Part shown: positions 7,506 to 32,090 of the stretch, piece after piece
How the letters are laid out: each line of letters begins with the position of its first letter
How positions within the stretch are numbered: the stretch's first letter is position 1
Origin: Oscillospiraceae bacterium
Lineage (GTDB): Bacteria; Bacillota; Clostridia; Oscillospirales; Oscillospiraceae
Assembly (NCBI GenBank): GCA_009781855.1
Contig: WQUY01000019.1
Span: forward strand, 1-37,648
Direction of reading: 5' to 3'
Length of the DNA: 37,648 bases
The notes under the pieces: generated by a model
The model's database searches: none
The model's input: the letters and a program-made list of their open reading frames with translations, nothing else
Told to the model about the DNA's origin: nothing
Program-made: the position numbers and the translations under genes

Positions 7506-9296
7506 TTAAACCAACCAGAGCCGCAATTCCAACTGAAGCAGCTCTTCGGCAAGCTCCTTTGGAAGCCGATCCTCAAACTGTGCATAAAACGCTTTGACAG
7601 GCGGCAGAATTTCTTTCCAGTAAACACTTCCCACAGAAAGAATAGCTCTGACAGCATCTATATTAAACCGCCTGCCGGGATGGATGTAATACTCCATGTC
7701 TTCAATGTTGATATCCTTTGTTCTGGGCGTATAGCCGATTGCAGTTTCCCTGGCATCGACTTCGCCCTTACAACGTCTGACAATCCAATCAATGACACGG
7801 AAATTGTCGCCGAAACCGGGCCAAATGAAATTGCCACCATCGTCAAGCCGGAACCAGTTGACATTAAATATTTTCGGAGGATTGGAAAGGGCTTTACCCA
7901 TGTCAAGCCAATGCTGCCAGTAATCGCCCATATTGTAGCCGCAAAATGGGAGCATTGCAAAAGGGTCAATCCTTAAAACTCCGGTTTTGCCGGTGGCAGC
8001 AGCAGTCGTTTCAGAAGCCACTATAGAGCCAACGAATACCCCATGCTGCCAGTCACGAGACTGATATACAAGCGGAGCGACCTTGGCGCGGCGACCGCCA
8101 AAAATAATTGCAGATAGTGGTACACCTTTTGGATCCTCCCAATTCGATGCGATGCAAGGGCAGTTTTTGGCAGGTGAAGTAAAGCGAGCGTTTGGATGTG
8201 CGCCCGGCTCACCGGAGTCCGGATCCCAAGGATTACCTTTCCAGTCCAGAGCGCCCCTGGGTGGGTTGTCATCCATGCCCTCCCACCAGACAGTGTTATC
8301 TTTTGTAAGCACCACATTTGTGAAGATTGTATTCTTTTTAGTTGATTCGAGTGCATTTGGATTGGATTTCATGCTTGTGCCCGGTGCAACGCCAAAAAAG
8401 CCGTTTTCCGGATTTATTGCCCAAAGTCTGCCATCGTCTCCGATTCTGAGCCAGGCGATATCGTCGCCGACTGTCCATACTTTGTAGCCTTTTTTTCGGT
8501 AGTATTCCGGCGGTATCAGCATTGCCAGATTTGTTTTTCCGCACTGTGACGGAAAAGCTCCTGCAATGTAAGTAACCTCGCCATCGGGACTTTCTATGCC
8601 GATAATTAGCATATGCTCGGCAAGCCAGCCTTCTTGTTTGCCCTGAAAGGAAGCCATGCGCAATGCAAAGCATTTTTTTCCAAGCAAGACATTGCCGCCA
8701 TAACCGGAGTTCATGCTCCATATTGTATTATCTTCCGGGAAATGCAGTATGTAGCGTTTTTGTGCATCCAATGCGCATTTGCTATGCATACCTCGGACAA
8801 AGTCGTTTGAATCGTCAAGCATGTCCAGCACGCGCTGTCCGATACGCGTCATGATATCCATACTCAGTACAACATAAATGGAGTCAGTCAATTCAACGCC
8901 GACTTTTGAAAAAGGAGAGCCAATCGGCCCCATAGAAAAGGGAACGACATACATTGTGCGCCCCTTCATAGCATCTTTGTAGATATCTTTGGCCATCGCA
9001 TAAGCTTTTTCAGGCGCCATCCAATTATTGCTAGGCCCTGCATCAATCTCGTTTTTGCTGCAAATAAATGTTCTGTCCTCAACTCTTGCGACATCGTCAA
9101 TAGCTGAGCGATGATAATAGCACCCCGGTAGCTTTTCTTGATTGAGCTTGATAAGCTCACCAGTCGAGCAAGCCTCTTGTCTCAATGCTTCAAGTTGTTC
9201 GTGGCTGCCGTCTATCCATATGACATTGTTTGGGTTTGCCAGTTGCTTCATTTCATCGACAAAATGAAGTACCATCTTATTTGTTGTCAGAGCCAT
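7506..9296 (-). CDS. pckG: Phosphoenolpyruvate carboxykinase (GTP)
   Basis: This 596-residue cytoplasmic enzyme interconverts oxaloacetate and GTP with phosphoenolpyruvate, CO2 and GDP. The hallmark kinase-1a loop FPSQCGKTNLAML includes the reactive-cysteine position of GTP-type enzymes. Further family blocks are ARVEDRTFIC, VGVELTDSIY, GDDIAWL, the FGVAPGTS loop, FGGRRAKVAPLVYQ, and NWFRLDDGGNFIWPGFGDN near the nucleotide pocket. Length fits the GTP family (about 600) rather than the ATP family. The start is the ATG at 9296, because an upstream in-frame ATG at 9311 is part of the GGAGGT ribosome binding site. The gene is divergent from the CoA-ester cluster, whose 5S-type subunit would make or use oxaloacetate. 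Confidence 0.95.
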   Translation of the reverse strand: MALTTNKMVLHFVDEMKQLANPNNVIWIDGSHEQLEALRQEACSTGELIKLNQEKLPGCYYHRSAIDDVARVEDRTFICSKNEIDAGPSNNWMAPEKAYAMAKDIYKDAMKGRTMYVVPFSMGPIGSPFSKVGVELTDSIYVVLSMDIMTRIGQRVLDMLDDSNDFVRGMHSKCALDAQKRYILHFPEDNTIWSMNSGYGGNVLLGKKCFALRMASFQGKQEGWLAEHMLIIGIESPDGEVTYIAGAFPSQCGKTNLAMLIPPEYYRKKGYKVWTVGDDIAWLRIGDDGRLWAINPENGFFGVAPGTSMKSNPNALESTKKNTIFTNVVLTKDNTVWWEGMDDNPPRGALDWKGNPWDPDSGEPGAHPNARFTSPAKNCPCIASNWEDPKGVPLSAIIFGGRRAKVAPLVYQSRDWQHGVFVGSIVASETTAAATGKTGVLRIDPFAMLPFCGYNMGDYWQHWLDMGKALSNPPKIFNVNWFRLDDGGNFIWPGFGDNFRVIDWIVRRCKGEVDARETAIGYTPRTKDINIEDMEYYIHPGRRFNIDAVRAILSVGSVYWKEILPPVKAFYAQFEDRLPKELAEELLQLELRLWLV

Positions 9297-9348
9297 TGTA
9301 TTTACCTCCATGCAATAAGCAGCACTTTATAAATAGCATTTTAAAAGT

Positions 9349-9761: not shown

Positions 9762-9806
9762 TGAATGCTCAAAAAGCTCAAAATTTTTACTAAAGGGAAG
9801 TTTAAC

Positions 9807-10949
9807 ATGGATTTTAAATTTTCACATGAAGAACAAGACATAGTAGATATGCTTCGCGAATTCTGCATCAAGGAAGTTGCACCGATAGCCGCAGAGATAG
9901 ATGAAAATGAGCGATTCCCACAAGAAACTGTTGAAAGCCTTGCAGAAATGGGAATGATGGGGCTTCCTTTTCCTGAAGAATATGGGGGAGCAGGTCTGAG
10001 TTATGTGACATATATTGCTGCTTGTGAGGAACTTGCAAGACATTGTGCCAGCACGAGCGTTATATTATCTGCGCACTGCTCATTGTGTTGTTGGCCAATC
10101 AATGAATTTGGAACCCATGAGCAAAAAGAAAAATACCTGATTCCGCTGACAACCGGAGAAAAACTCGGAGCTTTCGGACTTACAGAGCCTAGTGCAGGAA
10201 CCGATGCTGCAATGCAAAAGACCATAGCAGTTGATAAAGGCGACCACTGGCTTATCAATGGCTCGAAAATATTCATTACAAATGCCGGTCATGCCGACAC
10301 ACTTGTTATATTTGCAATGACCGACAAGGAACTGGGCAACAGAGGGATAACAGCATTTATAGTTGAAAAGGATTTTCCGGGCTTTAGCATTGGTACACAC
10401 GAGAAGAAGTTTGGAATCAGAGCTTCATCCACATGTGAACTAATTTTTGAGGACATGGTTGTACCAAAAGAAAATATGCTCGGAGAGCTCAACAAAGGAT
10501 TTAGAATTGCGATGGCAACGCTTGATGGAGGGCGCATAGGTATTGCAGCACAAGCGCTTGGCATTGCTGAAAGCGCAATTGAGGAATGTGTCCAATATGT
10601 TAAGCAACGTATCCAATTTGGCAGGTCGATAAGCAAGTTCCAAAACACTCAGTTTGAGCTTGCTGATATGCAGACAAAAGTCGAAGCATCTCGACTCCTT
10701 ATCTATCGTGCCGCACAAGCAAAACAAGATAAAGAATCATACACACACATGGCAGCGCAGGCCAAGCTTTTTGCTGCAGAAACTGCCAGTGATGTCACCC
10801 GCCGTTGCTTGCAGCTGGTAGGTGGATATGGATATACACGCGAGTATCCATTCGAAAGATTCATGCGAGACGCGAAGATAACTGAAATTTATGAAGGCAC
10901 AAACGAAGTTCAGAAAATGGTCATTTCTTCAGTGATGGGATTAAATTAA
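9807..10949 (+). CDS. Acyl-CoA dehydrogenase, short-chain (butyryl-CoA type)
   Basis: This 380-residue flavoenzyme oxidises or forms a short-chain acyl-CoA, most likely the butyryl-CoA/crotonyl-CoA pair, with electrons passing through ETF. It has the full family layout: N-terminal helical domain, beta domain with FGLTEPSAGTDA and WLINGSKIFITNA, and C-terminal domain with RIQFGRSISKFQ, GGYGYTREYPFERFMRDAK and the catalytic base Glu363 in YEGTNEV. The Arg that binds the distal carboxylate in glutaryl-CoA dehydrogenases is absent (STSVILSAH at that place), so a dicarboxylyl substrate is unlikely. The ATG at 9807 follows AAAGGGAAG. It is the first gene of a probable operon with the CoA-transferase subunits. 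Confidence 0.9.
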   Translation: MDFKFSHEEQDIVDMLREFCIKEVAPIAAEIDENERFPQETVESLAEMGMMGLPFPEEYGGAGLSYVTYIAACEELARHCASTSVILSAHCSLCCWPINEFGTHEQKEKYLIPLTTGEKLGAFGLTEPSAGTDAAMQKTIAVDKGDHWLINGSKIFITNAGHADTLVIFAMTDKELGNRGITAFIVEKDFPGFSIGTHEKKFGIRASSTCELIFEDMVVPKENMLGELNKGFRIAMATLDGGRIGIAAQALGIAESAIEECVQYVKQRIQFGRSISKFQNTQFELADMQTKVEASRLLIYRAAQAKQDKESYTHMAAQAKLFAAETASDVTRRCLQLVGGYGYTREYPFERFMRDAKITEIYEGTNEVQKMVISSVMGLN

Positions 10950-10977: not shown

Positions 10978-11628
10978 ATGAAAAATAAAGTAAAGACACG
11001 TGCCGAAGCGATAGATATGATACACGACGGGCAAACCCTCATGATTAGCGGCTTTACATTTGCCGGTACACCCGAGGGGTTAATAGATGGACTCATAGAA
11101 AAAGGAGTCAAGGATATAACACTGATATCCAACGATACTGGCACAGCCGAGTTCGGAATGGGCAAGTTGATTGTCAATAAGCTGGTTAAAAAACTCATAA
11201 CATCACATATTGGACTGAATCGTGAGACAGGTCGCCAAATGACGGCCGGTGAATTAGATGTCACACTGATTCCGCAAGGAACGATTGCAGAGAGAATCAG
11301 GACGGCGGGTGCCGGGCTGGGTGGATTTCTTACTCCGACAGGTGTAGGGACGATTGTTGAAGAGGGCAAGCAAAAGCTGACCATTGACGGCAGGGATTAT
11401 TTGCTTGAGCTTCCGCTTAGAGCAGAAGTAGCGCTCATTAAGGCCTGGAAAGCAGACAAGTATGGCAATCTGACTTATAGGCGCGCTGCAAGAAACTTTA
11501 ATCCTCTTATGGCAACTGCAGCGGATTTGGTTATTGTTGAGGCAGAAGAGATAGTTGAAGTCGGCGAGCTAGATCCGGAGATCGTATTTACACCGGGCTG
11601 CATGGTCGATGTAATTGTGCAGGCGTAG
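10978..11628 (+). CDS. Acid CoA-transferase subunit A (CtfA/AtoD family)
   Basis: This 216-residue alpha subunit of a family I CoA-transferase works with the next gene to move CoA between acyl-CoA and a free acid such as acetate, butyrate, acetoacetate or, in this context, possibly glutarate. Family blocks include [18 protein letters not shown], the TLISNDTG strand and the [18 protein letters not shown] loop. The GGAAGAGGAG ribosome binding site precedes the ATG. It lies 28 bases after the acyl-CoA dehydrogenase and 11 bases before subunit B. The acid substrate cannot be read from sequence. Activating the cluster's entry substrate or releasing butyrate are both reasonable. Confidence 0.9.
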
Positions 11629-11639
11629 GGGGAGAAGTA

Positions 11640-12290
11640 ATGGATAAGCGTGAAATGATTGCAAGAAGGATAGCCGACTATTTTAAGGAAGGTGATCTTG
11701 GAAATCTGGGTATAGGGTTGCCGACTTTAGTAGCCAACTATCTACCTGCTGATAGAAATGTTATGCTGCACTCAGAAAATGGGTTTATTGGTATCGGTCC
11801 GACGCCTAAACCGGATGAAATAGACAAAGACATGGTCAATGCGGGCGGACATGAAGTCACAATATTGCCCGGAGGCTGCTGCTTTGATAGTTCTTTCAGC
11901 TTTTTGTTGGCTCGTGGCGGGCATGTGGATATAACTGTTTTGGGTGCCTTAGAGGTAGACGAAAAAGGCAATCTGGCAAATTGGATGGTTCCGGGAAAGA
12001 TGGTTCCGGGTATGGGCGGAGCGATGGATTTGGTAGTAGGTGCAAAGAAGGTTATCATAGCCATGGAGCATACTACAAAAGACGGTGCACCTAAAATACT
12101 TGCAAACTGCGCATTGCCCCTGACGGCCGTCGGAGTTGTAAAGCATGTAGTTACTGAGCTTGGAGTCATGGACATAACCCCTGAAGGAGTTGTTCTTCGG
12201 GAGTTGGCTCCGGATGTGACTATTGAAGAGATTCAGTCCAAGACTGGGGCAAAGTTGATTATACCCGATAATGTAGGGTGCATGGTTTAA
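11640..12290 (+). CDS. Acid CoA-transferase subunit B (CtfB/AtoA family)
   Basis: This 216-residue beta subunit carries the catalytic glutamate, Glu46 in the HSENGFIG motif, which forms the enzyme-CoA thioester. Other family blocks are GIGLPTLVANYL, the GGHVDITVLGALEVD strand and the GMGGAMDLV loop. It pairs with subunit A directly upstream; subunit lengths match the heterotetrameric CtfAB/AtoDA enzymes. Two hairpins at 12308-12340 and 12366-12386 follow, so this is probably the end of transcription unit 1. Substrate specificity is open; the neighbourhood suggests C4-C5 acids. Confidence 0.9.
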   Translation: MDKREMIARRIADYFKEGDLGNLGIGLPTLVANYLPADRNVMLHSENGFIGIGPTPKPDEIDKDMVNAGGHEVTILPGGCCFDSSFSFLLARGGHVDITVLGALEVDEKGNLANWMVPGKMVPGMGGAMDLVVGAKKVIIAMEHTTKDGAPKILANCALPLTAVGVVKHVVTELGVMDITPEGVVLRELAPDVTIEEIQSKTGAKLIIPDNVGCMV

Positions 12291-12571: not shown

Positions 12572-14344
12572 ATGAGTACATACGGTTACTCGATGCCAGG
12601 TTATTTCCACAACATGCCGCACATAGGTGCGCCTGTTGACGAACCCAATGTGGATAATGAGGCGGAACTAAGAAAAATTGAAGAAGAAATAAAAAAAGAG
12701 GTCGATTCGATATTGGCCTCTGGGCGAAGTGACGAATCACTCAATGAATCAGGACAAATGACTGCGCTGCAGCGTTTGGAAATGCTTTTGGATCCGGGTT
12801 CATGGTGTCCTCTGAATAGCCTTTATAATCCTGAAAAAAATCCGGATGGAAGCACTGGCGTAATCACAGGTCTTGGGAAAATCCGTGACAAATGGGCTGT
12901 GATTATAGCATCAGATAACAAAAAACTGGCAGGGGCATGGGTTGCCGGTCAGGCATTGAAGCTGACTCGGGCTACAGACATGGCCAAACAACTGAACGTT
13001 CCTCTGGTATATGTGCTCAATTGCAGTGGGGTCAAGATGGATGAGCAGGAGAAAGTGTATGCAGGGCGCATCACCGGAGGCACACCGTTTTATCGTCATT
13101 CTGAGCTTATGCAGCTTGGAATTCCAATAATTTGCGGCATTTATGGCACAAACCCTGCAGGCGGTGGTTATCATGCAATTAGCCCGACAATTCTTTTAGC
13201 ACATGAAAAAGCAAATATGGCAGTTGGCGGTGCGGGCATCGTAAGCGGAATGAACCCCAAAGGATATGTTGATGATGAAGCGGCTGAGGCGCTTATTTCT
13301 GCAACAAAGAACGCGAAGAGGGAAGATCCCCCCGGTTCGGTTTCTGTTCACTTTGGTGTAACGGGATTTTTCCGTGAGTGTTACTCAGGGGAAGAAGGCG
13401 TACTTGAAGCGATAAAGAAATATATGGATGCCATTCCGGCATATAACGAGAACTTTTTCAGAGTGGCAGATCCGGTTGAACCTGCATATCCGGCAGAAGA
13501 CCTCTATACCCATGTTCCATTTAACCAACGCCGTGCATATGATATCCGCAAGGTTTTGGCATGTGTGTTCGACAACAGTGAATTTATGGAGTTTAAACAA
13601 GGGTATGGCCCTGAAATAGTTTGCGGCCTTGCAAAAGTAAACGGTTTACTTTGCGGTGCTGTATCAAACTTCCAGGGAATGATTCCAAGCTATCCGGAAT
13701 ATCTGGAAAACAGTGTCGGTGCAGGAGGCAAGTTATACCGTCAGGGTCTTATAAAGATGAGCGAATTTATAACCCTATGCGCCAGAGACAGAATTCCGGT
13801 GATATGGTTCCAGGATACTTCCGGCATTGATGTCGGTGATCCGGCCGAAATGTCTGAACTTCTTGGACTGGGTCAATCACTGATATACAGTATACAAAAT
13901 GCAAAGATTCCGCAAATGGAAATCACCTTGCGCAAAGGTACCGCTGCGGCACACTATGTCATGGGCGGGCCACAAGGCACAGACAGAAATGTATTCAGCC
14001 TTGGCACAGCAACGACTGAAATCTATGTTATGCACGGAGAAACAGCGGCGGCTGCGATGTTTGCCCGCAGGCTTGTCAAAGAACGAGAGGCCGGAAAAGA
14101 GATTCAGCCGGTTATCGACAAGATGAACAACCTGATTCAAAACTACAATGATACTTCGCGTCCGGCGGCGTGTGCAAAACAAGGTTTTGTCGATGAAATA
14201 GTAAAGTTTTCCGAGTTGCGCAGATATATTTGCGCATTTGTAGGTGCATCGTATCAGAATCCCGAGTCGATATGTGCATTCCATCAGATGCTCACCCCGC
14301 GTGCAATCCGTGAGTGGAACCACTTAAATGGAATTACGGAATAG
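12572..14344 (+). CDS. gcdA: Glutaconyl-CoA decarboxylase alpha-type carboxyltransferase
   Basis: This 590-residue biotin-dependent acyl-CoA carboxyltransferase has two crotonase-fold halves. Length and sequence match the Acidaminococcus GcdA pattern as I know it: the SMPGYFHNMPHIG N-terminus, SDNKKLAGAW, YVLNCSGVKMDEQEKVY, GIYGTNPAGGGYH, YGPEIVCGLAKVNGLL, WFQDTSGIDVGD and LRKGTAAAHYVMGGPQG. In glutaconyl-CoA decarboxylase this subunit moves the carboxyl group of glutaconyl-CoA to biotin, releasing crotonyl-CoA. It is also homologous to the 12S subunit of propionibacterial transcarboxylase and to propionyl-CoA carboxylase beta. The sodium-pump subunit GcdB is not in the window. The next gene is instead a 5S-type subunit, so the CO2 acceptor may be pyruvate (inference). 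Confidence 0.88.
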   Translation: MSTYGYSMPGYFHNMPHIGAPVDEPNVDNEAELRKIEEEIKKEVDSILASGRSDESLNESGQMTALQRLEMLLDPGSWCPLNSLYNPEKNPDGSTGVITGLGKIRDKWAVIIASDNKKLAGAWVAGQALKLTRATDMAKQLNVPLVYVLNCSGVKMDEQEKVYAGRITGGTPFYRHSELMQLGIPIICGIYGTNPAGGGYHAISPTILLAHEKANMAVGGAGIVSGMNPKGYVDDEAAEALISATKNAKREDPPGSVSVHFGVTGFFRECYSGEEGVLEAIKKYMDAIPAYNENFFRVADPVEPAYPAEDLYTHVPFNQRRAYDIRKVLACVFDNSEFMEFKQGYGPEIVCGLAKVNGLLCGAVSNFQGMIPSYPEYLENSVGAGGKLYRQGLIKMSEFITLCARDRIPVIWFQDTSGIDVGDPAEMSELLGLGQSLIYSIQNAKIPQMEITLRKGTAAAHYVMGGPQGTDRNVFSLGTATTEIYVMHGETAAAAMFARRLVKEREAGKEIQPVIDKMNNLIQNYNDTSRPAACAKQGFVDEIVKFSELRRYICAFVGASYQNPESICAFHQMLTPRAIREWNHLNGITE

Positions 14345-14389
14345 AGCTTCAGAGTTTATAATTATGCATTATGAATTAACAATAGTGGG

Positions 14390-15949
14390 GTGATTAACAT
14401 TTCAAGAAAAGTAATTAAGGCTAAAAAGCCGTTGGTAGAAGGCAAAAAGCTCAATGTAATGGATACAATCCTTCGCGATGCCCATCAATCGCAGGCTGCA
14501 ACCAGGATGCGCCTTGAGGACATGCTCCCGGTTTGTGAGGTGTTGGACAGTATTGGGTATTGGTCGCTTGAAGTTTGGGGCGGAGCCACTTTCGACGCAT
14601 GCATTCGCTACCTCAACGAAGACCCCTGGGAGAGATTGCGCGAACTCCGAAAAGCGCTGCCAAATACAAGACTTCAAATGCTGTTTCGAGGCCAAAACAT
14701 CCTTGGGTATCGTCATTACGGCGATGACGTGGTGGATAAGTTCTGCAAAAAATCCATAGAAAACGGTGTCGATGTTGTCCGCATATTTGATGCGCTGAAT
14801 GATGTCCGCAACCTTGAGCGGGCAATGAAGAGTGTAAAGGAATACGGTGGGATTGCCGAACCTGCGTTATCTTACACAGTCAGCCCGGTCCACAACGAAC
14901 AGTACTGGATTGATCTAGCTATGCGGCTCGAAGACATGGGTGCTGATGTAATTGGAATTAAAGATATGGCAAATGTCATGCTTCCGATGGACACGGCAAA
15001 TTTGATTAGGAAACTCAAAAAGCGTGTTAAGGTTCCGCTTCATTTGCACACCCACAACACGGCGGGAACCGGAGATATGAACTACATACTTGCTGCGCTT
15101 GAGGGTGTAGACATTGTGGACACGGCATTGTCTCCGTTGGCAAACGGCACGGCGCAGCCCGCAACAGAGTCGCTTGTGGCGTCACTCAAAGGGCATGAAA
15201 GAGATACCGGATTGGATCTCGTGAAAATGAGCGAGGCTGCGGAACATTTCCGCAAAGTTGCTGACCGATTGTCGGCTGAAGGCTTCCGTGATACACGTGC
15301 TTTGCAAGTCGATGTCAATACGCTGATTTATATGGTTCCGGGTGGCATGATTTCAAATCTGATTTCTCAGCTTAAAGACTTAAATGCCGAGGACAAGTAT
15401 TATGATGTCCTGAAAGAAGTGCCGCGCGTCCGTGAGGAAGCCGGATATCCGCCACTCGTTACACCCACCAGTCAGATAGTCGGGTCTCAGGCTGTTATGA
15501 ATATTGTAGGCGGTGAACGCTACAAGATGGTCACCAAAGAGTTTCGTGCAATGATGCGCGGTGAATACGGCGCATTGCCAGCTCCGGTTAATGAGGAAGT
15601 GCGCAAAAAATGCATTGGTGATGATGAAATAATAACCTGCCGTCCGGCAGACTTGATTTTAGAAGAATTTGATAAGTTGAAAGAAGAAATAGGTGATCTT
15701 GCAACCTCTGAGGAAGATGTCTTGACCTATGCACTGTTTCCGCAGGTCGGCAAAGCATTTCTTGAATACAGGCGCAAAAAGGAACTGGGCATCGAAGATG
15801 AGGAGCTTATCGCTGTCATTACTGCGGCAATAAATGCTTACAGGCAAGAAAATGCAAATGTGCATCCGCTGATAAGAAATATAAGCGGGGTACTTGAAGC
15901 GCAACGAGGTGCCAAGGCAGCAAATCCGCTTGCGAGAAATTGCGGATAA
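14390..15949 (+). CDS. Pyruvate/oxaloacetate carboxyltransferase (5S / PycB / OadA-like)
   Basis: This 519-residue protein catalyses carboxyl transfer between biotin and pyruvate/oxaloacetate. The TIM-barrel active site is complete: metal Asp30 in LRDAHQS, the FRGQNILGYRHY block, the carbamylated-lysine position Lys191 in GIKDMA, and metal histidines His220 and His222 in HLHTHNT. The C-terminal domain contains PGGMISNLISQL and a VTPTSQIVGSQAV block. It ends without a biotinyl domain, like the 5S subunit of transcarboxylase and unlike full-length OadA. The biotin carrier is the next gene. The start is uncertain: GTG at 14390 lies in a GGGGTGAT ribosome-binding-like stretch, which would better serve an ATT codon at 14399. 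A role in transcarboxylation, oxaloacetate decarboxylation or pyruvate carboxylation is possible. Confidence 0.9.
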   Translation: MINISRKVIKAKKPLVEGKKLNVMDTILRDAHQSQAATRMRLEDMLPVCEVLDSIGYWSLEVWGGATFDACIRYLNEDPWERLRELRKALPNTRLQMLFRGQNILGYRHYGDDVVDKFCKKSIENGVDVVRIFDALNDVRNLERAMKSVKEYGGIAEPALSYTVSPVHNEQYWIDLAMRLEDMGADVIGIKDMANVMLPMDTANLIRKLKKRVKVPLHLHTHNTAGTGDMNYILAALEGVDIVDTALSPLANGTAQPATESLVASLKGHERDTGLDLVKMSEAAEHFRKVADRLSAEGFRDTRALQVDVNTLIYMVPGGMISNLISQLKDLNAEDKYYDVLKEVPRVREEAGYPPLVTPTSQIVGSQAVMNIVGGERYKMVTKEFRAMMRGEYGALPAPVNEEVRKKCIGDDEIITCRPADLILEEFDKLKEEIGDLATSEEDVLTYALFPQVGKAFLEYRRKKELGIEDEELIAVITAAINAYRQENANVHPLIRNISGVLEAQRGAKAANPLARNCG

Positions 15950-16016
15950 ATTTTGTCGCCGATATTATCGGATTTCAGATAATTATGAATAAAATTAATG
16001 GAGGAATGAAACAATA

Positions 16017-16421
16017 ATGAAAAACTATAAAGTTACAGTCAACGGCAATACTTATGAAGTAGATGTCGAAGAGGTTGGCGGTGTGGCTGAGGTTAAGTCT
16101 GTTCAGGCTGCCGCTCCGGTTCAAAAAGCTACACTTGCACCAAAACCAGCTCCGGTGTCGAAACCAGCGCCTGCTCCGGCAAAGAAAGCAGATGCTCCTG
16201 CAGGTGCGGCTGAAAATGTATTGGCTCCGCTTCCCGGCGTAGTGCTTTCAGTAAATGTTAAGGTCGGCGATAAAATAAAAGCAAATCAAGTCCTTCTGAT
16301 TTTCGAAGCAATGAAGATGGAAAATGAAATTGTGGCAGACCGTGCAGGAACAATAAAAGAAATTTTTGTAACAAAAGGCGATATGCTCGATAGCGGCACG
16401 CCGGTTGTTTCTATAGCATAG
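16017..16421 (+). CDS. gcdC: Biotin carboxyl carrier protein (GcdC / 1.3S type)
   Basis: This 134-residue carrier has a short N-terminal beta segment (KVTVNGNTYEVDVEEV), a flexible Ala/Pro/Lys linker (about residues 30-65) and a biotinyl domain. The biotinylated lysine is Lys100 in the EAMKMEN motif. It should shuttle the carboxyl group between the GcdA-type subunit and the 5S-type subunit encoded immediately upstream. The arrangement resembles GcdC of glutaconyl-CoA decarboxylase and the 1.3S subunit of transcarboxylase. GGAGG lies 11 bases before the ATG. It is followed 13 bases later by the glutaryl-CoA dehydrogenase, in the same operon. Confidence 0.92.
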   Translation: MKNYKVTVNGNTYEVDVEEVGGVAEVKSVQAAAPVQKATLAPKPAPVSKPAPAPAKKADAPAGAAENVLAPLPGVVLSVNVKVGDKIKANQVLLIFEAMKMENEIVADRAGTIKEIFVTKGDMLDSGTPVVSIA

Positions 16422-16434: not shown

Positions 16435-17595
16435 ATGTACTTTGCATATTCAGAAGATATGGAAATGATTGCCGAGATGGCAAGGGACTTCGCAAAAAAA
16501 GAAATAGCCCCGTTTATTGAAGAAGATGAAGAAAACCATCACTATCGTCGTGAAATTCTTTCGCAACTGGGTGAGCTGGGACTTTTAGGGTTCTCAATTC
16601 CGGAAGAATACGGCGGCAATGGATTGGGATGGATGGAAGGTGTTGCAGCCCTTTATGAAATCTCCAAAGTACATACATCGTGGCGACTGAGTATCAGCGG
16701 TAATGTATGGGGGCCGGCGATGACTATTTTGCATCATGGTACGGAAGCGCAGAAGCAAAAGTGGATTCCGGGTCTTTGCAGTGGTGAATTGGTCGGAAGT
16801 TTTGCGATAACCGAGGCAAACTCAGGTTCTGATGTAGGCAGCATGAAAATGACTGCAAAAGATGGTGGCGACCATTGGGTTCTAAATGGCTCAAAGATGT
16901 GGATATCCGGTGGGCACACAGCCGATGTCATGCTGGTCTTTGCAAAAACAGACCCTGCTGCCGGAGCCAGAGGAATTTCCTGTTTTGTAGTTGATTTTAA
17001 CGAAACGACTGAGGGTGTCGAAAGAATACCGATTCATAAGAAAGTTGGTATGTGGCCTGCACCGACATCCGAAATCGTTTTTGAAGATGCTAAGATTCCT
17101 AAGGAAAACCTGCTTGGAGTCGAGAACAAGGGCTTTCAGCTTTGCATGTGGATGCTAAACAATACACGTATGGGCTGTGCAACTGGGGCAGCGGCATTAT
17201 CAGCAGCTTGTCTTGAGGGTAGTGTCCAGTATGCAAATGAGCGCACTCAATTTGGACAGGCTATAGGCAAATTCCAAATGATCCAGCAGCAGATAGCAGA
17301 GATGAAACTTGAAGATGATGCAGCAAAGTTTCTTGTGTTCAGAGCGGCCTGGCTCAAAGAAAATGGTATGCCAAGTCAGCAAGAAACGTCAATGGCAAAG
17401 GTGTTTGCATGTAACTCTGCAGTTCATGCGGCAAATGTTGCAATGAAGATATATGGTTCATATGGTTATTCGGATGAATATCCTTGCGGCAGATGGCTTC
17501 GTGATGCAAAGCAATTTGAGACGCTTGAAGGAACCTCAAATATCCATATGGGAATCATCGCAGGAATTGAGCTAGGATACCAGGCCAACAGATAA
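16435..17595 (+). CDS. Glutaryl-CoA dehydrogenase, probably non-decarboxylating
   Basis: This is a 386-residue acyl-CoA dehydrogenase with catalytic Glu365 (LEGTSNI). Arg84 in TSWRLSISGN aligns with the arginine that binds the distal carboxylate of glutaryl-CoA in characterised glutaryl-CoA dehydrogenases (Arg94 in the human enzyme). Neither other dehydrogenase in the window has it. The residue before the catalytic glutamate is Leu364; decarboxylating enzymes have tyrosine there, and the non-decarboxylating Desulfococcus enzyme has a small hydrophobic residue, as I recall. C-terminal similarity to that enzyme is strong (NNTR, ERTQFGQAIGKFQM, GYSDEYP, QANR end). It should make glutaconyl-CoA, the substrate of the GcdA-type subunit three genes upstream. 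GGGAGG precedes the ATG. Confidence 0.85.
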   Translation: MYFAYSEDMEMIAEMARDFAKKEIAPFIEEDEENHHYRREILSQLGELGLLGFSIPEEYGGNGLGWMEGVAALYEISKVHTSWRLSISGNVWGPAMTILHHGTEAQKQKWIPGLCSGELVGSFAITEANSGSDVGSMKMTAKDGGDHWVLNGSKMWISGGHTADVMLVFAKTDPAAGARGISCFVVDFNETTEGVERIPIHKKVGMWPAPTSEIVFEDAKIPKENLLGVENKGFQLCMWMLNNTRMGCATGAAALSAACLEGSVQYANERTQFGQAIGKFQMIQQQIAEMKLEDDAAKFLVFRAAWLKENGMPSQQETSMAKVFACNSAVHAANVAMKIYGSYGYSDEYPCGRWLRDAKQFETLEGTSNIHMGIIAGIELGYQANR

Positions 17596-17678: not shown

Positions 17679-18452
17679 ATGAATGTTACATACGAACTCA
17701 AAGATAACATAGCACTGATAACGATAAACAGGCCGGATGCACTCAATGCGCTAAATCTTGATGTATTGGATGAGTTGGATATTGCCGCCATGCGGGCAGA
17801 GAAAGATGAAGATGCGCTTGTTGTGGTTATAACCGGTGCAGGGCGGGCGTTTGTAGCGGGTGCCGACATTGTTCAAATGAAAGACCTGACAGCAGATGAG
17901 GGTCGTGCTTTCGGAACGTATGGCAATAGTGTGTTTTCAAATATTGAATCGCTGAGAAAACCCGTTATTGCGGCGATAAACGGATTTGCGTTAGGCGGAG
18001 GCTGTGAGCTTGCCTTGGCGTGTGACATAAGGATTGCAAGTGAGAAAGCTAAATTTGGCCAGCCGGAAGTGGGTCTAGGGATTACTCCTGGATTCGGTGG
18101 AACTCAAAGATTACCCAGAGTTGTTGGGTTATCAAAAGCAAAAGAACTCATTTTTACGGCAGAAATTATAGATGCACAGGAAGCGCTGAGGATAGGGCTT
18201 GTCAGCCAGGTTGTTGCGGCTGAAGATCTCATGGATGCAGCAATCTCTATGGCAACAAAAATTGCAAGTAACGCTCAGATTGCGGTCAGGCAGAGCAAAG
18301 TAGCAATCAACACCGGTATGCAGTGCGGTATCGAAACGGGGCTGAAAATTGAAGCTCAGGCGTTCGGTCTTTGTTTTTCAACGCATGATCAAGAAGATGC
18401 TATGACGGCATTTATCAACAAGGAAAAACTGACCTCATTTAAAAACATGTAG
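17679..18452 (+). CDS. crt: Enoyl-CoA hydratase / 3-hydroxybutyryl-CoA dehydratase (crotonase)
   Basis: This 257-residue crotonase-family enzyme interconverts crotonyl-CoA and 3-hydroxybutyryl-CoA. Both catalytic glutamates are present, in GGGCELALACD and in GQPEVGLG. The oxyanion-hole segments AGADI and NGFALGGG are intact. Length is that of clostridial Crt. It sits between the glutaryl-CoA dehydrogenase and 3-hydroxybutyryl-CoA dehydrogenase genes, as expected for conversion of the crotonyl-CoA formed by decarboxylation. A strong AAGGAGGGG site precedes the ATG. The TAG stop codon is at the edge of a GTAGGGGCG-type repeat hairpin, so the C-terminus may have been set by that element. Confidence 0.92.
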   Translation: MNVTYELKDNIALITINRPDALNALNLDVLDELDIAAMRAEKDEDALVVVITGAGRAFVAGADIVQMKDLTADEGRAFGTYGNSVFSNIESLRKPVIAAINGFALGGGCELALACDIRIASEKAKFGQPEVGLGITPGFGGTQRLPRVVGLSKAKELIFTAEIIDAQEALRIGLVSQVVAAEDLMDAAISMATKIASNAQIAVRQSKVAINTGMQCGIETGLKIEAQAFGLCFSTHDQEDAMTAFINKEKLTSFKNM

Positions 18453-18515: not shown

Positions 18516-19358
18516 ATGAAAAAGATTAGCATAATCGGCGCAGGCACAATGGGAACAGATATTGCTCAGGTATTTGCCAAGCAAGGCTTTGAAGTTGTGG
18601 TAAGAGACATGACCGATGACATAATCGGAAAGTCGTCGGGTAAGTTGCAAAAGACCTTAGCAAAGCTCGTTGAAAAAGGGAAGCTAGCAGAAGAATCAAA
18701 GCTCAATATGCTTGGGCTAATTAAGTTCTCTACAGAATTAGGAGACTGTGCTGACGCAGATTTGGTCATAGAGGCAATAATTGAAAATGCAGACATCAAG
18801 AAAGAACTTTTCAAAACCCTAGATGGCATATGCAAACCCGAATGTATTTTTGCGACAAACACCTCGTCTATTTCTATCACAGAGCTGGCAGCATCAATTT
18901 CCCGTAAAGACAAATTCATCGGGATGCATTTCTTCAATCCGGCATCGATAATGAAGCTTATTGAAATTATCAGGGGTATCGAAACCTCGGACGAAACTTT
19001 CGCAAAGATAAAAGAACTTTCACTGCAAATCGGTAAAGAGCCGGTTGAGGTCAAAGACAGTCCGGGATTCATAGTGAACAAGATACTTATTCCTATGATT
19101 AATGAAGCGGCTACAGTTTTGATGGAAGGTGTTGCAAGCGCAGAGGACATAGACAAGGCCATGTGTCTTGGGGCGAACCATCCGATGGGGCCTCTTGCAC
19201 TTTCAGATCTTGTCGGCAACGACACCGTTTTGAACATTATGAATGTGCTCTATAATGAAACCGGCGACCAAAAGTACAGACCCTGCCTGCTACTGAAGAA
19301 TATGGTTAGGGGCGGAATGCTCGGCAGGAAAACGGGCAAGGGCTTTTATAGCTATTAA
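18516..19358 (+). CDS. hbd: 3-hydroxybutyryl-CoA dehydrogenase
   Basis: This 280-residue NAD(P)-dependent enzyme interconverts 3-hydroxybutyryl-CoA and acetoacetyl-CoA. The Rossmann motif GAGTMG is at residues 7-12. The catalytic block MHFFNPA has the active-site histidine, and further family motifs are [10 protein letters not shown] and [13 protein letters not shown]. Length is typical of Hbd (about 280). It is downstream of crt, separated by a repeat hairpin, with GAAAGGA before the ATG. With crt it links crotonyl-CoA to acetoacetyl-CoA. No thiolase is present in the window, so cleavage to acetyl-CoA must be encoded elsewhere. Confidence 0.94.
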
Positions 19359-19380: not shown

Positions 19381-21504
19381 ATGTTTTTTAACGAAGATCA
19401 TAATGACATTCGCGAACTTGCGAGGGAGTTTGCCGAAAAAGAGCTTGCTCCGATTGCAAACGAGATAGATCATAATGACGCGGTTCCACAGGCGATTTAC
19501 GATAAAATGGCACAAATGGGATTTTTCGGACTCAAAATTCCTAAAGAATATGGTGGGATAGGACTTGATGTGCGCTCATATGTATCCGTTATGGAAGAGA
19601 TATGTAAAAAAAGCATCACATGCAGTCTTACATTTTCGTCAGCAAACTCACTTTCAACCGCACCGATTCTTCTTGCGGGTACAGAAGAACAAAAACAAAA
19701 ATATGTTCCTGGCATAGCAAGTGGCAAGGAATTCATGGCATTTGGGCTCACAGAGCCCGGTGCGGGCAGTGATGCAGGTGCCATGACAACAAAAGCTGTT
19801 GAAGATGGAGACTACTACATACTTAATGGCAGAAAGACATTTATAACAGGTGCTCCCTTTGCAAAAAATACGGTGGTATTCGCAAAAACCAACCCGGATA
19901 AAGGGCCTAAGGGCATCACGACGTTCATCGTTGACATGACGCTTCCCGGCGTTTCTATCGGCAAGCATGAGGAGAAAATGGGACTGCGTGGCGTTGCGAC
20001 GAGCGATGTTGTTTTAGAAGATGTGCGCGTGCATAAGCGCGAAATTCTTGGTGAGATTGACAAAGGCTTTACCACTGCGATGAAAACCCTTTCAATCGGA
20101 CGCATTGGTGTCGCATGTCAAGGTATCGGTGTTGCGCAAGGTGCGTTGGAAGAAGCTGTAAAGCACATAAAAGAGCGCAAACAGTTTGGTCAATTCCTTT
20201 CTGAATTTCAGGCGCTTCGATTCATGATTGCAGATATGGAAACAAAAATCAATGCGGCCAAACTGCTCGTATATAATGCAGCATACAAGATGGATATGGG
20301 TGAGGATGTCACAAAGGATTCCTCAATGGCAAAATATTTTGCCACTGAAATGTCGCTTGATGTTGTAAGCAAAGCGCTGCAAATGCATGGTGGATATGGA
20401 TACTCAAAGGAATATCCGATAGAGCGCATGTATCGCGATGCCCGCGTGCTGACCATTTTTGAAGGAACATCTCAAGTTCAGCAAATGGTTATAGCAGGGG
20501 CAGTACTCAGTGACAAAAAGATGAAAAAGGAAGAGATAGAAAAGCAGCAGGCGGCGCCCGCAGCTCAGGCAAAAGCAGCTCCGGTTGCAAAAACCGCTGC
20601 ACCTGCAGCCGCAGCAAGACCGAGTGTTGCCCAAGCGGCACAGGCACCGGTGGCAACGCCGGCAGCTTCCGTAGCCGCAAAACCACAGCCGACGAATCAG
20701 GACGGTAAAAGCATGAACATACTTGTTTGTGTCAAACAGGTTCCAAATACCGAGGAACTAAAAGTCGATGCTGCCGCCGGAACATCAAATCTCGAAACAA
20801 TCCCGAAAGTACTGAGCACATTTGATGCTTGTGCTTTAGAGACTGCTGTAAGAATGAAAGATGCTAACCCGTCGGTCAAAATCGTTGTTGTAACAGTCGG
20901 TTCAGATAAAGCAAAAGATGTTTTGAAAGCTTGTGTTGCAGTGGGTGCAGACAAGGCGTATCATGTTAATGACCCTGTCTTTGAGGATGTTGACTCACTT
21001 GCTGTGAGTTATGTATTGTCACTTGCGGTGCGCAAAATAGAAGAACTTGAAGGTGCCTTTGACCTCGTGTTCTTAGGCCGCCAGGCTAATGACACCGATG
21101 CCGGACAGGTTGGGCCACAATTGGCTGAATACCTTGGCTATCCGGGGCTTTCTTATGCTCGCGAAGTATCTGTGGTTGATGGGAAAGTACGCGCAACTCG
21201 TGAAACCGAAGATGGCTATGTGGTTATGGATGCGGACATCCCTGCAGTCGTAACTGTTACAAAAACAGAGTATGATTTGAGATTCCCCTCGGTTAAATCA
21301 AAAATGGCAGCAAATCGTGCGGAAATCCCGGTATTTACTGCAGCAGACTTTGGAGATGATGCTGTATCTATTTGGCAGCCGACAAAAACGCTCAAGACAT
21401 ATATCCCTGAACGCAAATCAGGCGGCATAAAAATTGAGGAAGAGACAGGCGAGCTTTCCGCCGAAAAACTGACGGCGCTGCTCAGCAATGCCGGAGTCAT
21501 ATAA
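19381..21504 (+). CDS. Acyl-CoA dehydrogenase fused to EtfB
   Basis: This 707-residue fusion has two complete parts. Residues 1-380 are an acyl-CoA dehydrogenase of the butyryl-CoA type, with FGLTEPGAGSDAG, GGYGYSKEYPIERM and catalytic Glu361 in FEGTSQV. Residues 391-440 are a low-complexity Ala/Pro/Lys/Gln linker. Residues 445-707 are a full EtfB, beginning MNILVCVKQVPNTEE and containing GRQANDTDAGQVGPQ. The internal Met445 (position 20713) is preceded by a GGACGG stretch that could be a relic or active ribosome binding site. The partner EtfA follows 13 bases after the stop. In characterised clostridial Bcd/EtfAB complexes these are separate proteins. The distal-carboxylate Arg is absent, so butyryl/crotonyl-CoA is the likely substrate; electron bifurcation is possible but unproven. 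Confidence 0.92.
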   Translation: MFFNEDHNDIRELAREFAEKELAPIANEIDHNDAVPQAIYDKMAQMGFFGLKIPKEYGGIGLDVRSYVSVMEEICKKSITCSLTFSSANSLSTAPILLAGTEEQKQKYVPGIASGKEFMAFGLTEPGAGSDAGAMTTKAVEDGDYYILNGRKTFITGAPFAKNTVVFAKTNPDKGPKGITTFIVDMTLPGVSIGKHEEKMGLRGVATSDVVLEDVRVHKREILGEIDKGFTTAMKTLSIGRIGVACQGIGVAQGALEEAVKHIKERKQFGQFLSEFQALRFMIADMETKINAAKLLVYNAAYKMDMGEDVTKDSSMAKYFATEMSLDVVSKALQMHGGYGYSKEYPIERMYRDARVLTIFEGTSQVQQMVIAGAVLSDKKMKKEEIEKQQAAPAAQAKAAPVAKTAAPAAAARPSVAQAAQAPVATPAASVAAKPQPTNQDGKSMNILVCVKQVPNTEELKVDAAAGTSNLETIPKVLSTFDACALETAVRMKDANPSVKIVVVTVGSDKAKDVLKACVAVGADKAYHVNDPVFEDVDSLAVSYVLSLAVRKIEELEGAFDLVFLGRQANDTDAGQVGPQLAEYLGYPGLSYAREVSVVDGKVRATRETEDGYVVMDADIPAVVTVTKTEYDLRFPSVKSKMAANRAEIPVFTAADFGDDAVSIWQPTKTLKTYIPERKSGGIKIEEETGELSAEKLTALLSNAGVI

Positions 21505-21517
21505 GGAGGAGAGCAAA

Positions 21518-22513
21518 ATGAGCGAATATAAGAATGTATGGGTCTATGTCGAAGTGTTCGGCGGCAAGGCAAAGAATGTCGGCCTTGAAATAATCGGAGC
21601 GGGCAAAAAAGTTGCTGCGTCCGGGGAGCAAGTTGTTGCGGTTCTGGTTGGAAATAACCTGGACGATGCATGTAGTGCTGCTGCTTCATTTGGCGCAGAT
21701 CAAATCATTACAGTATCTGGTGAAGACTATCAGGACTATTCTCTTGAGGGATATACATATGCACTGAAAGCGTTGGTTGAAAAGCATAAGCCTGCAGCGT
21801 TTCTGTTCGGTGCAACCAGTAACGGGCGCGAATTGGCACCGCGCCTTGCAGCGCGACTGAAAACAGGTTGTGCATCAGACTGCATTGGTGTTGAAGTTGG
21901 TGAAAGCGGAGCGATTAATTTTACGCGTCCTGTATACTCAGGTCGTTATCTGAGTGTTGTTGAAATGCCGGAAGCGCGTCCGCAAATCGGCACCATTCGC
22001 CCGGGCATCTTTAAACGAGGAACGCCGGACGCAGGGCGCACAGCCCCAATCGTGAGCGAATCAGTAGCCGTTCCGGCTGATGTTGTTCGCACGGCGCTGA
22101 TTGAGCGGGTTGCTGAGGCGGCAGAGGGTGCGGTTAAACTTGAAGATGCTGAAGTCATTGTTTCTGGTGGGCGTGGACTTGGAAAGCAGGAAAGCTTTGA
22201 ACTTCTAAAAGAGCTTGCTGACTTGTTGGGAGGCGTTGTTGGTGCCTCACGTGCAGCCGTTGATGCGGGTTGGATAAATCATGTGCATCAGGTGGGTCAA
22301 ACCGGCAAGACTGTAGGGCCTAAGTTGTACATAGCATGTGGCATATCCGGAGCAATCCAGCATATGGCGGGAATGAGTGGCTCGGATATAATCATTGCGA
22401 TAAACAGAGATGGTGATGCACCTATATTTGAAATCGCTGACTACGGAATTGTGGGCGATCTCAAAACAGTTGTTCCAGCACTTACGGAGTCAATAAAGAA
22501 ACTCAGAGCATAA
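21518..22513 (+). CDS. etfA: Electron transfer flavoprotein alpha subunit
   Basis: This is a 331-residue EtfA. The C-terminal FAD domain is clear: VSGGRGLGKQESF, the GASRAAVDAGW segment, QVGQTGKTVGPKLYIACGIS and INRDGDAPIFEIADYGIVGD. The N-terminal domain contains GATSNGRELAPRLAARL. The ATG at 21518 is preceded by AAGGAGGAG; an in-frame ATG at 21488 overlaps the fusion gene and includes that site, so it is unlikely. It should form a heterodimer with the EtfB half of the preceding fusion protein and pass electrons between the acyl-CoA dehydrogenases and NADH, ferredoxin or a membrane oxidoreductase. It is the last gene of unit 2. Confidence 0.95.
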   Translation: MSEYKNVWVYVEVFGGKAKNVGLEIIGAGKKVAASGEQVVAVLVGNNLDDACSAAASFGADQIITVSGEDYQDYSLEGYTYALKALVEKHKPAAFLFGATSNGRELAPRLAARLKTGCASDCIGVEVGESGAINFTRPVYSGRYLSVVEMPEARPQIGTIRPGIFKRGTPDAGRTAPIVSESVAVPADVVRTALIERVAEAAEGAVKLEDAEVIVSGGRGLGKQESFELLKELADLLGGVVGASRAAVDAGWINHVHQVGQTGKTVGPKLYIACGISGAIQHMAGMSGSDIIIAINRDGDAPIFEIADYGIVGDLKTVVPALTESIKKLRA

Positions 22514-28873: not shown

Positions 28874-30463
28874 CTAAATCTCCATCAAACCATCTTTGAA
28901 CAAACGCTTGTCCATGAGCTTAAGGTCTGGACTGACCAGAGGTTTGAATTCCATTTTATCAAGAACGTCTTTTTGCAGATCAACTCCCGGAGCAATCTCT
29001 GTGAGCATCAAGCCATCTGGAGTCAGTTTAAACACTGTGCGTTCGGAGATATAGGTGATATCCTGCCCACTCTTGACGGCATACTCACCCGAGAAAGTAA
29101 TTTGCTGAACGTTCTTTACATACTTCATTTCGCTGCCATCTTTGTGGATATTAAGACCGTCACCCGTGATTTCGATATCCGGCTTAGGTTTTCCGGCAGT
29201 GAAGTTACCTAGGAAATAAACTTTCTTGGTGTTTTGAGAAATATCAATAAATCCGCCTGCACCGATGCAGCGTCCGGCAAATTTAGAAACATTTACGTTA
29301 CCCTTTTCATCTATCTCAGCAGCGCCTAAAAAAGCAATGTCGAGTAAACCGCCGTCATACATATCCAGCGTGTCTGTTTGCGTGAATATTGCATCGGCAT
29401 TTGCAACGCCAGGGAAAGACAAGCCTTCTTGAACCTGCCCTCCCATAGGGCCGGATTCGACAGAAGCTGTCAGACCATGGCCAAGCCCCTCTTCTGCTGC
29501 GACACTGCCTATTCCTGATGGAATGCCGCTGCCGAAGTTAATGATTAAATCGGGCAAAAGCTCAAGTGCCGCTCTGCGGGCAATTACCTTGCGAAGCGTG
29601 AGTGGTAGCTTTTTGGTGGCGCCACGGGCAAGCTTTACTTCACCGGAAAGCTCTGGGCGGTGTTTCGAAGTTGCATAGCATTGGCGATGGTTGTCGGGAT
29701 TTTCCGCTTTGACAATATAATCGACAAATTTCTCGTGAAGCCTGATTTCTTTGGTCTGCAAAGTTCCACGACGAACGATATCTTGTACTTGTACAATAAC
29801 GATACCGCCGCTGTTGCGTGTTGCTATAGCAATCTCAAGCTCTGTGCCATGCAGCCCCTCTTGCGCCATTGAAATATTGCCGTCTTCATCGGCATAAGTG
29901 CCGCGCAAGAAGCAGACATTTGGTTTGAAACCATTATAGAAGAGATATTCTTCGCCATCAATTTCCATCAGTCTGACGATTGAGCCTAGCTCGCGAGCTT
30001 TGTCATTAACAGCACAACCTTCATTTCTGGGGTCGCAGAAAGTTCCAAGCCCGACCTTTGTGATAAGCCCGGGACGACCACCGGCGACAGCTCTGAACAA
30101 GTTTACCATGACACCCATCGGTGGAAGATAACCAGCGATTTTATTGTCACCGACAGCATAGGCAATCGCACGGGCATCAGTTAGGTTTCCGCATCGGATT
30201 GTTGATATAAGCCCCTCTGCTCTGAGCCTGTTTACACCAAGGTTATATCCTTTGCCTGGTTCATCGGTTGCTTCGAGTTTATCGCCTGGGGTGATGCCGC
30301 AAAGGACTGTGAGATTTTTTGGATGAGCGTCTTTCTCATATCTTTCGGCAAGACCCTCCAGTAATTCCTCCGGGCTGCCAAAAGAGCCAAAGCCGCCAAC
30401 GACGAGCATATCATCGTCTTTAATATGACTGACAGCCTCTTCAAGAGATACAAATTTAGCCAT
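28874..30463 (-). CDS. Acyl-CoA:acid CoA-transferase, fused alpha/beta type
   Basis: This 529-residue family I CoA-transferase has both halves in one chain, like propionate CoA-transferase and its relatives. The N-terminal half has MLVVGGFGSFGSPEELL and LPPMGVMVNLFRA. The C-terminal half has INFGSGIPSGIGSVAAEEG and the catalytic Glu336 in SVESGPMGG. It transfers CoA between short acyl-CoAs and free acids. It is the last gene of a cluster with a cupin, a 3-hydroxyacid/acyl-CoA dehydrogenase and a beta-keto acid cleavage enzyme. It may recycle CoA from the acyl-CoA product to acetate or acetoacetate (inference). GGAG precedes the ATG, and a strong terminator follows. Confidence 0.92.
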   Translation of the reverse strand: MAKFVSLEEAVSHIKDDDMLVVGGFGSFGSPEELLEGLAERYEKDAHPKNLTVLCGITPGDKLEATDEPGKGYNLGVNRLRAEGLISTIRCGNLTDARAIAYAVGDNKIAGYLPPMGVMVNLFRAVAGGRPGLITKVGLGTFCDPRNEGCAVNDKARELGSIVRLMEIDGEEYLFYNGFKPNVCFLRGTYADEDGNISMAQEGLHGTELEIAIATRNSGGIVIVQVQDIVRRGTLQTKEIRLHEKFVDYIVKAENPDNHRQCYATSKHRPELSGEVKLARGATKKLPLTLRKVIARRAALELLPDLIINFGSGIPSGIGSVAAEEGLGHGLTASVESGPMGGQVQEGLSFPGVANADAIFTQTDTLDMYDGGLLDIAFLGAAEIDEKGNVNVSKFAGRCIGAGGFIDISQNTKKVYFLGNFTAGKPKPDIEITGDGLNIHKDGSEMKYVKNVQQITFSGEYAVKSGQDITYISERTVFKLTPDGLMLTEIAPGVDLQKDVLDKMEFKPLVSPDLKLMDKRLFKDGLMEI

Positions 30464-30486
30464 AAAAACTCCTTAACAATAAATTT

Positions 30487-30951: not shown

Positions 30952-31010
30952 AATGTAATATACCTCCTAATGTGTTGGGGTGTATCAAAATTGTCATTGT
31001 GTAAAAAATG

Positions 31011-32075: not shown

Positions 32076-32090
32076 TCTAATTACCCCGCA

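Follow-up and report, generated by a model that had tools for sequence, protein, structure and literature searches.

The window analysed here is a 37,648-nucleotide stretch of DNA from an Oscillospiraceae gut bacterium (assembly GCA_009781855.1, contig WQUY01000019.1). Within it, three intact, collinear open reading frames (ORFs), separated by gaps of 45 and 67 bases, encode a carboxyltransferase of the glutaconyl-coenzyme A (CoA) decarboxylase alpha type (GcdA), a second carboxyltransferase of the transcarboxylase 5S or oxaloacetate decarboxylase alpha (OadA) type, hereafter 5S, and a free biotin carrier (Table 1). The carrier gene is followed, after 13 bases, by a gene for glutaryl-CoA dehydrogenase, and the gene row contains neither a sodium-pump beta or gamma subunit nor a biotin carboxylase. 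A preliminary description of the locus had recognized these four genes, the transcarboxylase-like subunit set (12S, 5S and 1.3S roles in one operon) and the missing membrane subunit GcdB, all of which our analysis confirmed, and its overall reading is supported by the sequence comparisons below. The three proteins are likely to form a soluble glutaconyl-CoA:pyruvate carboxyltransferase in which a C-terminal tail acquired from GcdD tethers 5S to GcdA; in the sodium pump, GcdD is the small membrane subunit taken to connect GcdA and GcdB. In such an enzyme, GcdA would transfer the carboxyl group of glutaconyl-CoA to the biotin of the free carrier, yielding crotonyl-CoA, and the carrier would then swing to 5S, where carboxybiotin and pyruvate would give oxaloacetate and biotin.

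The acyl-CoA subunit is a true glutaconyl-CoA decarboxylase alpha subunit. Its best solved relatives are two GcdA structures (1pix, 866 bits; 3gf3, 859 bits), compared with 147 bits for the next non-GcdA chain and 102 bits for transcarboxylase 12S, and its 144 bits against the MmdA model are below the cut-off of 999. An identity as MmdA or propionyl-CoA carboxylase was considered and ruled out by the structure-chain and family-model scores. As the preliminary description had expected, the protein falls inside true GcdA and not with the methylmalonyl-CoA enzymes. The 15 GcdA proteins linked to a 5S gene form a single group in a tree of 81 GcdA proteins, with support of 98/98 in a more careful tree built from 35 of them. 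Their sister group, at 100/100, comprises two Oscillibacter proteins and one from a Clostridia bacterium (L067-L069), encoded in the order gcdA - OAD_gamma - carrier - OadB, i.e., in an ordinary sodium-pump operon. Because of this grouping and the sister operons, the 5S-linked form most simply had one origin, out of an ordinary sodium-pump operon. Only GcdA positions 77, 511 and 569 separate the 5S-linked clade from its sister, and they carry no clear message.

Domain models place HMGL-like and PYC_OADA domains in 5S; it lacks a biotin domain of its own, as previously described. It shares 216 of 444 aligned residues with the Propionibacterium transcarboxylase 5S, and its metal ligands D30, K191, H220 and H222 are kept and align with those of 1rqb as numbered in the literature (Asp, carbamylated Lys and two His); the numbering offset also fits two point-mutant chains among the same structure matches. 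The protein stays below the 5S equivalog cut-off (540 vs 827 bits) and exceeds that of the NCBIfam pyruvate carboxylase subunit B domain model (704 vs 402 bits). In a tree of 45 5S, OadA and pyruvate carboxylase rows, the 5S group is nested among OadA proteins from other families of the order, and carrier-OadB-OadA operons (L196-L199) encode the nearest four OadA proteins (67–72% identity). Judged by this position, 5S descends from the OadA of a sodium-pumping oxaloacetate decarboxylase. The genome of the window contains no second PYC_OADA protein. The carrier has a Biotin_lipoyl domain (PF00364), and the lysine of its EAMKME motif, the Lys100 named before, is invariant in six of six aligned proteins, the window included. 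In two genomes that also have the gcdA-5S operon, a biotin carboxylase ORF adjoins a protein of about 500 residues, part of which is 31–32% identical to 5S (L185 in G063, contig C10; L186 in G015/G062, contig C2), a possible two-subunit carboxylase.

A feature absent from the preliminary description is the homology of the 5S tail (15794-15880) to the C-terminus of GcdD. The GcdA-linked 5S proteins extend 39–61 residues beyond the last motif shared with OadA (14 tails; that of L055 is cut), and the nearest four OadA proteins extend 19–35 residues beyond the same motif, with unrelated letters. An early strict GcdD-tail motif matched one of 31 loci (L093), and direct listing and hidden Markov models (HMMs) were used instead. 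An HMM built from the 14 tails was searched against 19,494 six-frame ORFs, which include some duplicates from overlapping loci; its best matches outside 5S were membrane proteins of roughly 100 residues (E values: L067, 4.9e-9; L069, 1.6e-5; L131, 6.9e-5; L200, 2.5e-4; L068, 6.3e-4; L093, 4.2e-3; L202, 0.018), and all seven pass the Pfam OAD_gamma (GcdD/OadG) cut-off. The best match among reversed ORFs had an E value of 0.11. Weaker matches were found at L132, L023 and L021/L196 (E 0.07 to 1), and a 456-residue ORF at L071 (E 0.51) was taken for chance. In the reverse search, a model of the three sister GcdD tails ranked 5S proteins directly behind its own sequences (best 2.6e-6; window 5S, 3.3e-4; some at 0.01 to 0.2), and hhalign aligned the 5S tails with the sister GcdD tails with a probability of 97.2% and 52% identity over 29 columns. 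OAD_gamma was the top Pfam model for all six of the 14 tails tested, with E values of 1.5e-4 to 0.026 that do not reach its cut-off because the match covers just the last 16–22 of 76 positions; it was listed for none of the five OadA C-termini tested (0/5). After the tail helix, 5S has HPLIRN-like letters where the sister GcdD has NP[FM][IV]RN. These comparisons, taken together, identify the 5S tail as homologous to the GcdD C-terminus.

The accessible text on the glutaconyl-CoA pump takes the C-terminal part of GcdD to link GcdA (PMC7145394), and that on oxaloacetate decarboxylase reports that loss of the gamma tail severely cut the amount of alpha subunit recovered with beta-gamma (PMC7274780). 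With such a segment on 5S, there is a physical reason to expect one GcdA-5S complex. Since the tail is homologous to GcdD and the nearest OadA proteins lack it, the pump and its anchor would have been lost and the docking segment moved to the carboxyl acceptor. On the simplest reading of the sequences, 5S took over the docking segment of GcdD and hence the place of GcdB beside GcdA. A second NPxxRN/NPxxRS-like motif occurs at the extreme C-terminus of 5S in the window, L054, L057, L059, L063 and L070 and is missing in L056, which would fit a duplication of the last part of the docking tail; a second short tail-HMM domain was detected at the 5S end in L011, L014, L017 and L058, and not in the window.

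The arrangement recurs. The gcdA gene is present in 8 of 60 related genomes, the window's own included, and 5S adjoins it in all eight, which span three genera; in one of them (G018) the gene is split across two contigs. Among named genomes, the best 80 of 130 GcdA relatives were scanned, so that 50 more distant ones, maybe with Geobacter-type pairs, lie outside the set. Fourteen of the 80 loci have 5S next to gcdA, and none of the remaining 66 has it within the available flanks, some of which are ended by the contig. The 14 loci belong to Oscillospiraceae, Sporobacter or unclassified Clostridiales; Sporobacter termitidis DSM 10068 (L057) is among them. With the window's genome and G018 added to the 14, six of which overlap the first set, there are 16 distinct operon-bearing genomes. 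A wider survey found gcdA in 9 of 394 genomes of the order; two of these (the window's own and G025) were already in the set, and the seven further loci have no 5S within 1.5 kb. Its recurrence in 8/8 gcdA-bearing genomes and in 14/80 named loci argues that the gcdA-5S order in the window is not due to chance.

The gene row also suggests where glutaconyl-CoA would come from (Table 1). The glutaryl-CoA dehydrogenase scores 330 bits against 3mpi, compared with 210 and 161 bits for other glutaryl-CoA dehydrogenases, and 398 bits against NCBIfam GlutCoADH_Des, below the cut-off of 470. We take 3mpi to be the non-decarboxylating Desulfococcus enzyme, which agrees with the NCBIfam name. An Arg84 motif, whose arginine should, we assume, hold the substrate carboxylate, is kept in all 12 full-length glutaryl-CoA dehydrogenases, the window included. 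The dehydrogenase is probably of the non-decarboxylating kind and would supply glutaconyl-CoA. It lies past the carrier in 12 of the 14 named 5S loci (as a 33-residue piece in L058); at the other two the contigs stop within 168 bases of 5S, and it is the best match in none of the 66 gcdA loci without 5S. Binding of the tail to GcdA, the carboxyl transfer itself and glutaryl-CoA as the feed are inferred. A general feed from 2-hydroxyglutaryl-CoA was rejected: the HGD-D family is unmatched in G004, the most complete gcdA-bearing congener, and gives a sub-cut-off match in G018. In the window's genome, HGD-D matches of 205 and 46 bits lie on contig C18; judged by eye, the protein of the former match, in the stretch 6000-20000 of C18 (L193), has activase-like ORFs on both sides and then CoA-transferase- and flavoprotein-like ORFs, and the set looks like a 2-hydroxyacyl-CoA dehydratase or a benzoyl-CoA reductase.

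Table 1. Features of the gene row and of the neighbouring phosphoenolpyruvate (PEP) carboxykinase, with window coordinates.
Feature	Position	Strand	Remarks
gcdA, GcdA-type carboxyltransferase (12S role)	12572..14344	+	590 aa, intact ORF
5S/OadA-type carboxyltransferase gene	14390..15949	+	519 aa, GTG start, intact ORF, no biotin domain
GcdD-type docking segment inside 5S gene (residues 469-497, EDEELIAVITAAI...HPLIRN)	15794..15880	+	tail HMM, hhalign, Pfam
Possible second NPxxRN end motif in 5S (NPLARN, residues 512-517)	15923..15940	+	tail alignments
Free biotin carrier (1.3S/GcdC role), Lys100 site, Ala/Pro-rich linker	16017..16421	+	134 aa; PF00364; alignment
Glutaryl-CoA dehydrogenase, probably non-decarboxylating kind	16435..17595	+	best solved relative 3mpi
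Crotonase (short-chain enoyl-CoA hydratase)	17679..18452	+	domain/family models
3-Hydroxybutyryl-CoA dehydrogenase	18516..19358	+	domain/family models
Acyl-CoA dehydrogenase fused to EtfB	19381..21504	+	domain models
EtfA	21488..22513	+	–
Acyl-CoA dehydrogenase, head of gene row	9765..10949	+	domain/family models
Two-subunit CoA-transferase (AtoDA/CtfAB type)	10978..12290 (10978-11628 and 11640-12290)	+	candidate for glutarate activation, putative substrate
GTP-dependent PEP carboxykinase, divergent to row	7506..9311	-	860.7 bits, cut-off 504

On the product side, a PEP carboxykinase gene occurs in the available flank of 4 of the 14 5S loci and of none of the 66 others (one-sided hypergeometric, 6e-4), a value that overstates the link because the loci are related and the flanks differ. 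The carboxykinases are of two unrelated kinds: GTP-type in L055, L065 and L066, as well as in the window and G018, and ATP-type in L057. PEP carboxylase was unmatched in all seven genomes searched, and six of the eight gcdA-bearing genomes contain no full-length pyruvate carboxylase frame (G016 and G020 have one). The pathway would run from glutaryl-CoA to glutaconyl-CoA, whose carboxyl group would pass to pyruvate; the oxaloacetate would be converted to PEP by PEP carboxykinase, and crotonyl-CoA would proceed to butyryl-CoA or acetyl-CoA. We favour this direction, from glutaconyl-CoA through oxaloacetate to PEP, the reverse being possible.

Further genes lie around the operon. The junction of acyl-CoA dehydrogenase and EtfB (19381-21504) is an Ala/Pro-rich linker, and the corresponding stretches match separately in L011, L013, L015 and L017. 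On the reverse strand, 28874-33005 encodes a 529-residue CoA-transferase, a 3-hydroxyacyl-CoA dehydrogenase-like protein and a beta-keto acid cleavage enzyme; a lysine- or phloroglucinol-type breakdown is possible for these genes because 3-keto-5-aminohexanoate cleavage and 3,5-dioxohexanoate:acetyl-CoA transfer are among their NCBIfam matches below cut-off. In G004, an 88% identical copy of this CoA-transferase lies beside the gcdA-5S operon.

A sodium pump assembled from subunits encoded elsewhere would change the interpretation, and the preliminary description had proposed searching for gcdB or oadB and for biotin carboxylase genes. The membrane beta subunit (OAD_beta, PF03977) and GcdD (OAD_gamma, PF04277) were both unmatched in the window's genome (92% complete) and in four operon-bearing congeners (G004, 98%; G018, 96%; G013, 64%; G016, 69%), where just the C-terminal segment of GcdD was found, on 5S. 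The expected absence thus held for the window's genome and four of five congeners; it did not hold for G015, which has OAD_beta beside gcdA, or for 11 of the 14 named operon-bearing genomes. The sole biotin carboxylase found in the window's genome lies in a fatty-acid (fab/acc) operon with AccB-, AccD- and AccA-like ORFs, as read from the ORFs.

Several points weigh against a soluble carboxyltransferase. Rather than reaching GcdA, the fused tail might turn back onto 5S, since the gamma tail of oxaloacetate decarboxylase is taken, in the accessible text, to bind the association domain of OadA itself (PMC7274780). An AlphaFold2 model of 5S (11 sequences) was too poor to help (mean predicted local distance difference test, pLDDT, 53; predicted template modelling score 0.55), and the tail helix that it draws at 472-486 has pLDDT <50 for the most part and was not used. 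The PEP carboxykinase link comes from few, related loci, and the gene is missing at L054, L056, L059, L060, L061, L063 and L070 within 10 kb upstream of gcdA and 4–8 kb after 5S. The window's own assembly is a draft, 92% complete, and of the four congeners lacking OAD_beta two are less than 70% complete. Finally, OAD_beta is present in 11 of the 14 named genomes (11 of the 16 distinct ones) and absent in three, and in G062/G015, G066, G067 and G073 no alpha subunit belonging to it adjoins it in the stretches examined.

This last observation makes a shared pump conceivable in those genomes: GcdA and the OadA-like 5S would be two alpha subunits with a common carrier, feeding one sodium-pumping OadB encoded elsewhere, so that two substrates would drive one pump. 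In G062/G015 the OAD_beta is divergent and lies right beside gcdA, together with OAD_gamma. However, OAD_beta lies next to its own carboxyltransferase in G064 and G065 and next to OadA in G068, and is a divergent orphan copy in G063, G069, G070 and G071; both pump subunits are unmatched in the five genomes listed above; and the GcdD tail is fused to 5S rather than to a membrane helix. We therefore regard a shared pump as unlikely. Divergent orphan OAD_beta genes without an alpha subunit or biotin carrier form one clade (L178, L180, L181, L182 and L183); they are 47–49% identical to the query copy, and weak OAD_gamma matches lie nearby in some of these genomes. At L174 (G067, contig C23), gamma, biotin carrier (gamma-BCCP) and OadB genes lie between two CoA-transferase-subunit-like ORFs of 533–549 residues, with no alpha subunit.

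The soluble enzyme might also run backwards. The accessible passages of two papers give about 30 kJ/mol released for each of the glutaconyl-CoA and oxaloacetate decarboxylations (PMC7145394, PMC8473912). Because both values are about -30 kJ/mol, the carboxyl exchange should be near equilibrium. PEP carboxykinase, which adjoins the gene row, could then make oxaloacetate from PEP and CO2 with a gain of ATP or GTP, and crotonyl-CoA would be converted through glutaconyl-CoA to glutaryl-CoA, with excretion of glutarate; methylmalonyl-CoA transcarboxylase is known in both directions. Glutarate excretion finds no support here, and crotonase, hydroxybutyryl-CoA dehydrogenase and CoA-transferase stand in the row as for breakdown, so this direction appears slightly less probable still than a shared pump. 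Least credible is a two-part pyruvate carboxylase of carrier and 5S, charged with ATP and bicarbonate by the fatty-acid AccC, with GcdA carboxylating crotonyl-CoA from the same carboxybiotin or acting alone: the single biotin carboxylase of the genome, the pyruvate carboxylase subunit B score and the absence of another PYC_OADA protein would suit it, but that biotin carboxylase belongs to the fatty-acid operon and not to the gene row, and the 5S tail points to docking on GcdA.

Parts of the soluble glutaconyl-CoA:pyruvate carboxyltransferase proposed here have precedents. In Geobacter bemidjiensis, genes for glutaryl-CoA dehydrogenase, gcdA and oadA (Gbem_1452-1454) stand side by side, and the authors wrote in 2010, in the accessible part of the paper, that no other Gcd subunits were found and that the two decarboxylases may cooperate (PMC2996986). 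These are the same three enzyme types as in the window, likewise adjoining; two biotin domains are reported for that OadA, and the accessible text does not name a transcarboxylase for it (PMC2996986). A methylmalonyl-CoA transcarboxylase has been proposed out of similar parts in a Clostridium genome paper, again in its accessible portion (PMC7764203). We found no mention of a glutaconyl-CoA transcarboxylase or carboxytransferase in the open-licence papers searched. The earlier view that the pairing was undescribed is thus not wholly correct: gcdA beside oadA and the idea of cooperation are already in print. Our searches of those papers did not turn up the subunit set, its single origin by a swap, a GcdD-type tail on a 5S protein or the PEP carboxykinase link.

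Among characterized systems, the GcdABCD pump of Acidaminococcus and Clostridium symbiosum has GcdA, the carrier and the C-terminal segment of GcdD in common with the window, whereas the window operon lacks GcdB and the membrane helix of GcdD and has an OadA-type subunit instead. The OadABG pump is the source of the window 5S (67–72% identity to the OadA of oad operons); in contrast to it, the window operon has no OadB or OadG, and 5S would act next to GcdA. We lean towards a subunit swap, in which GcdB and the GcdD membrane helix were lost, the OadA of another pump was brought in and the GcdD tail was transplanted onto it. The transcarboxylase plan would then have arisen a second time, here with glutaconyl-CoA as the donor; the cell would obtain oxaloacetate without ATP, bicarbonate or PEP carboxylase and, through coupling to PEP carboxykinase, could make sugars while growing on glutarate or aromatic acids. 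If true, a glutaconyl-CoA version would reveal modularity in the decarboxylase pumps; it would also mean that the energy of decarboxylation can be stored in oxaloacetate and not in a sodium gradient, and that moving one short docking tail can rewire a multi-enzyme complex. It would also be a possible oxaloacetate route for bacteria that lack PEP carboxylase and often a full-length pyruvate carboxylase.

The closest functional model is the Propionibacterium transcarboxylase, methylmalonyl-CoA carboxytransferase (EC 2.1.3.1), which consists of an acyl-CoA carboxyltransferase, 5S and a free carrier, with no biotin carboxylase and no membrane part. The window follows the same plan, with the acyl-CoA carboxyltransferase, pyruvate carboxyltransferase and free carrier in one operon, no dedicated biotin carboxylase and the metal ligands of 5S kept. 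Methylmalonyl-CoA is the only textbook acyl-CoA donor of the biotin transcarboxylases. The window has no 12S of the methylmalonyl-CoA type, its acyl-CoA subunit being GcdA, and its 5S is nested in clostridial OadA, carries a GcdD-type tail and stays under the 5S equivalog cut-off. The system is thus probably a transcarboxylase variant of second origin, assembled from the parts of two sodium pumps.

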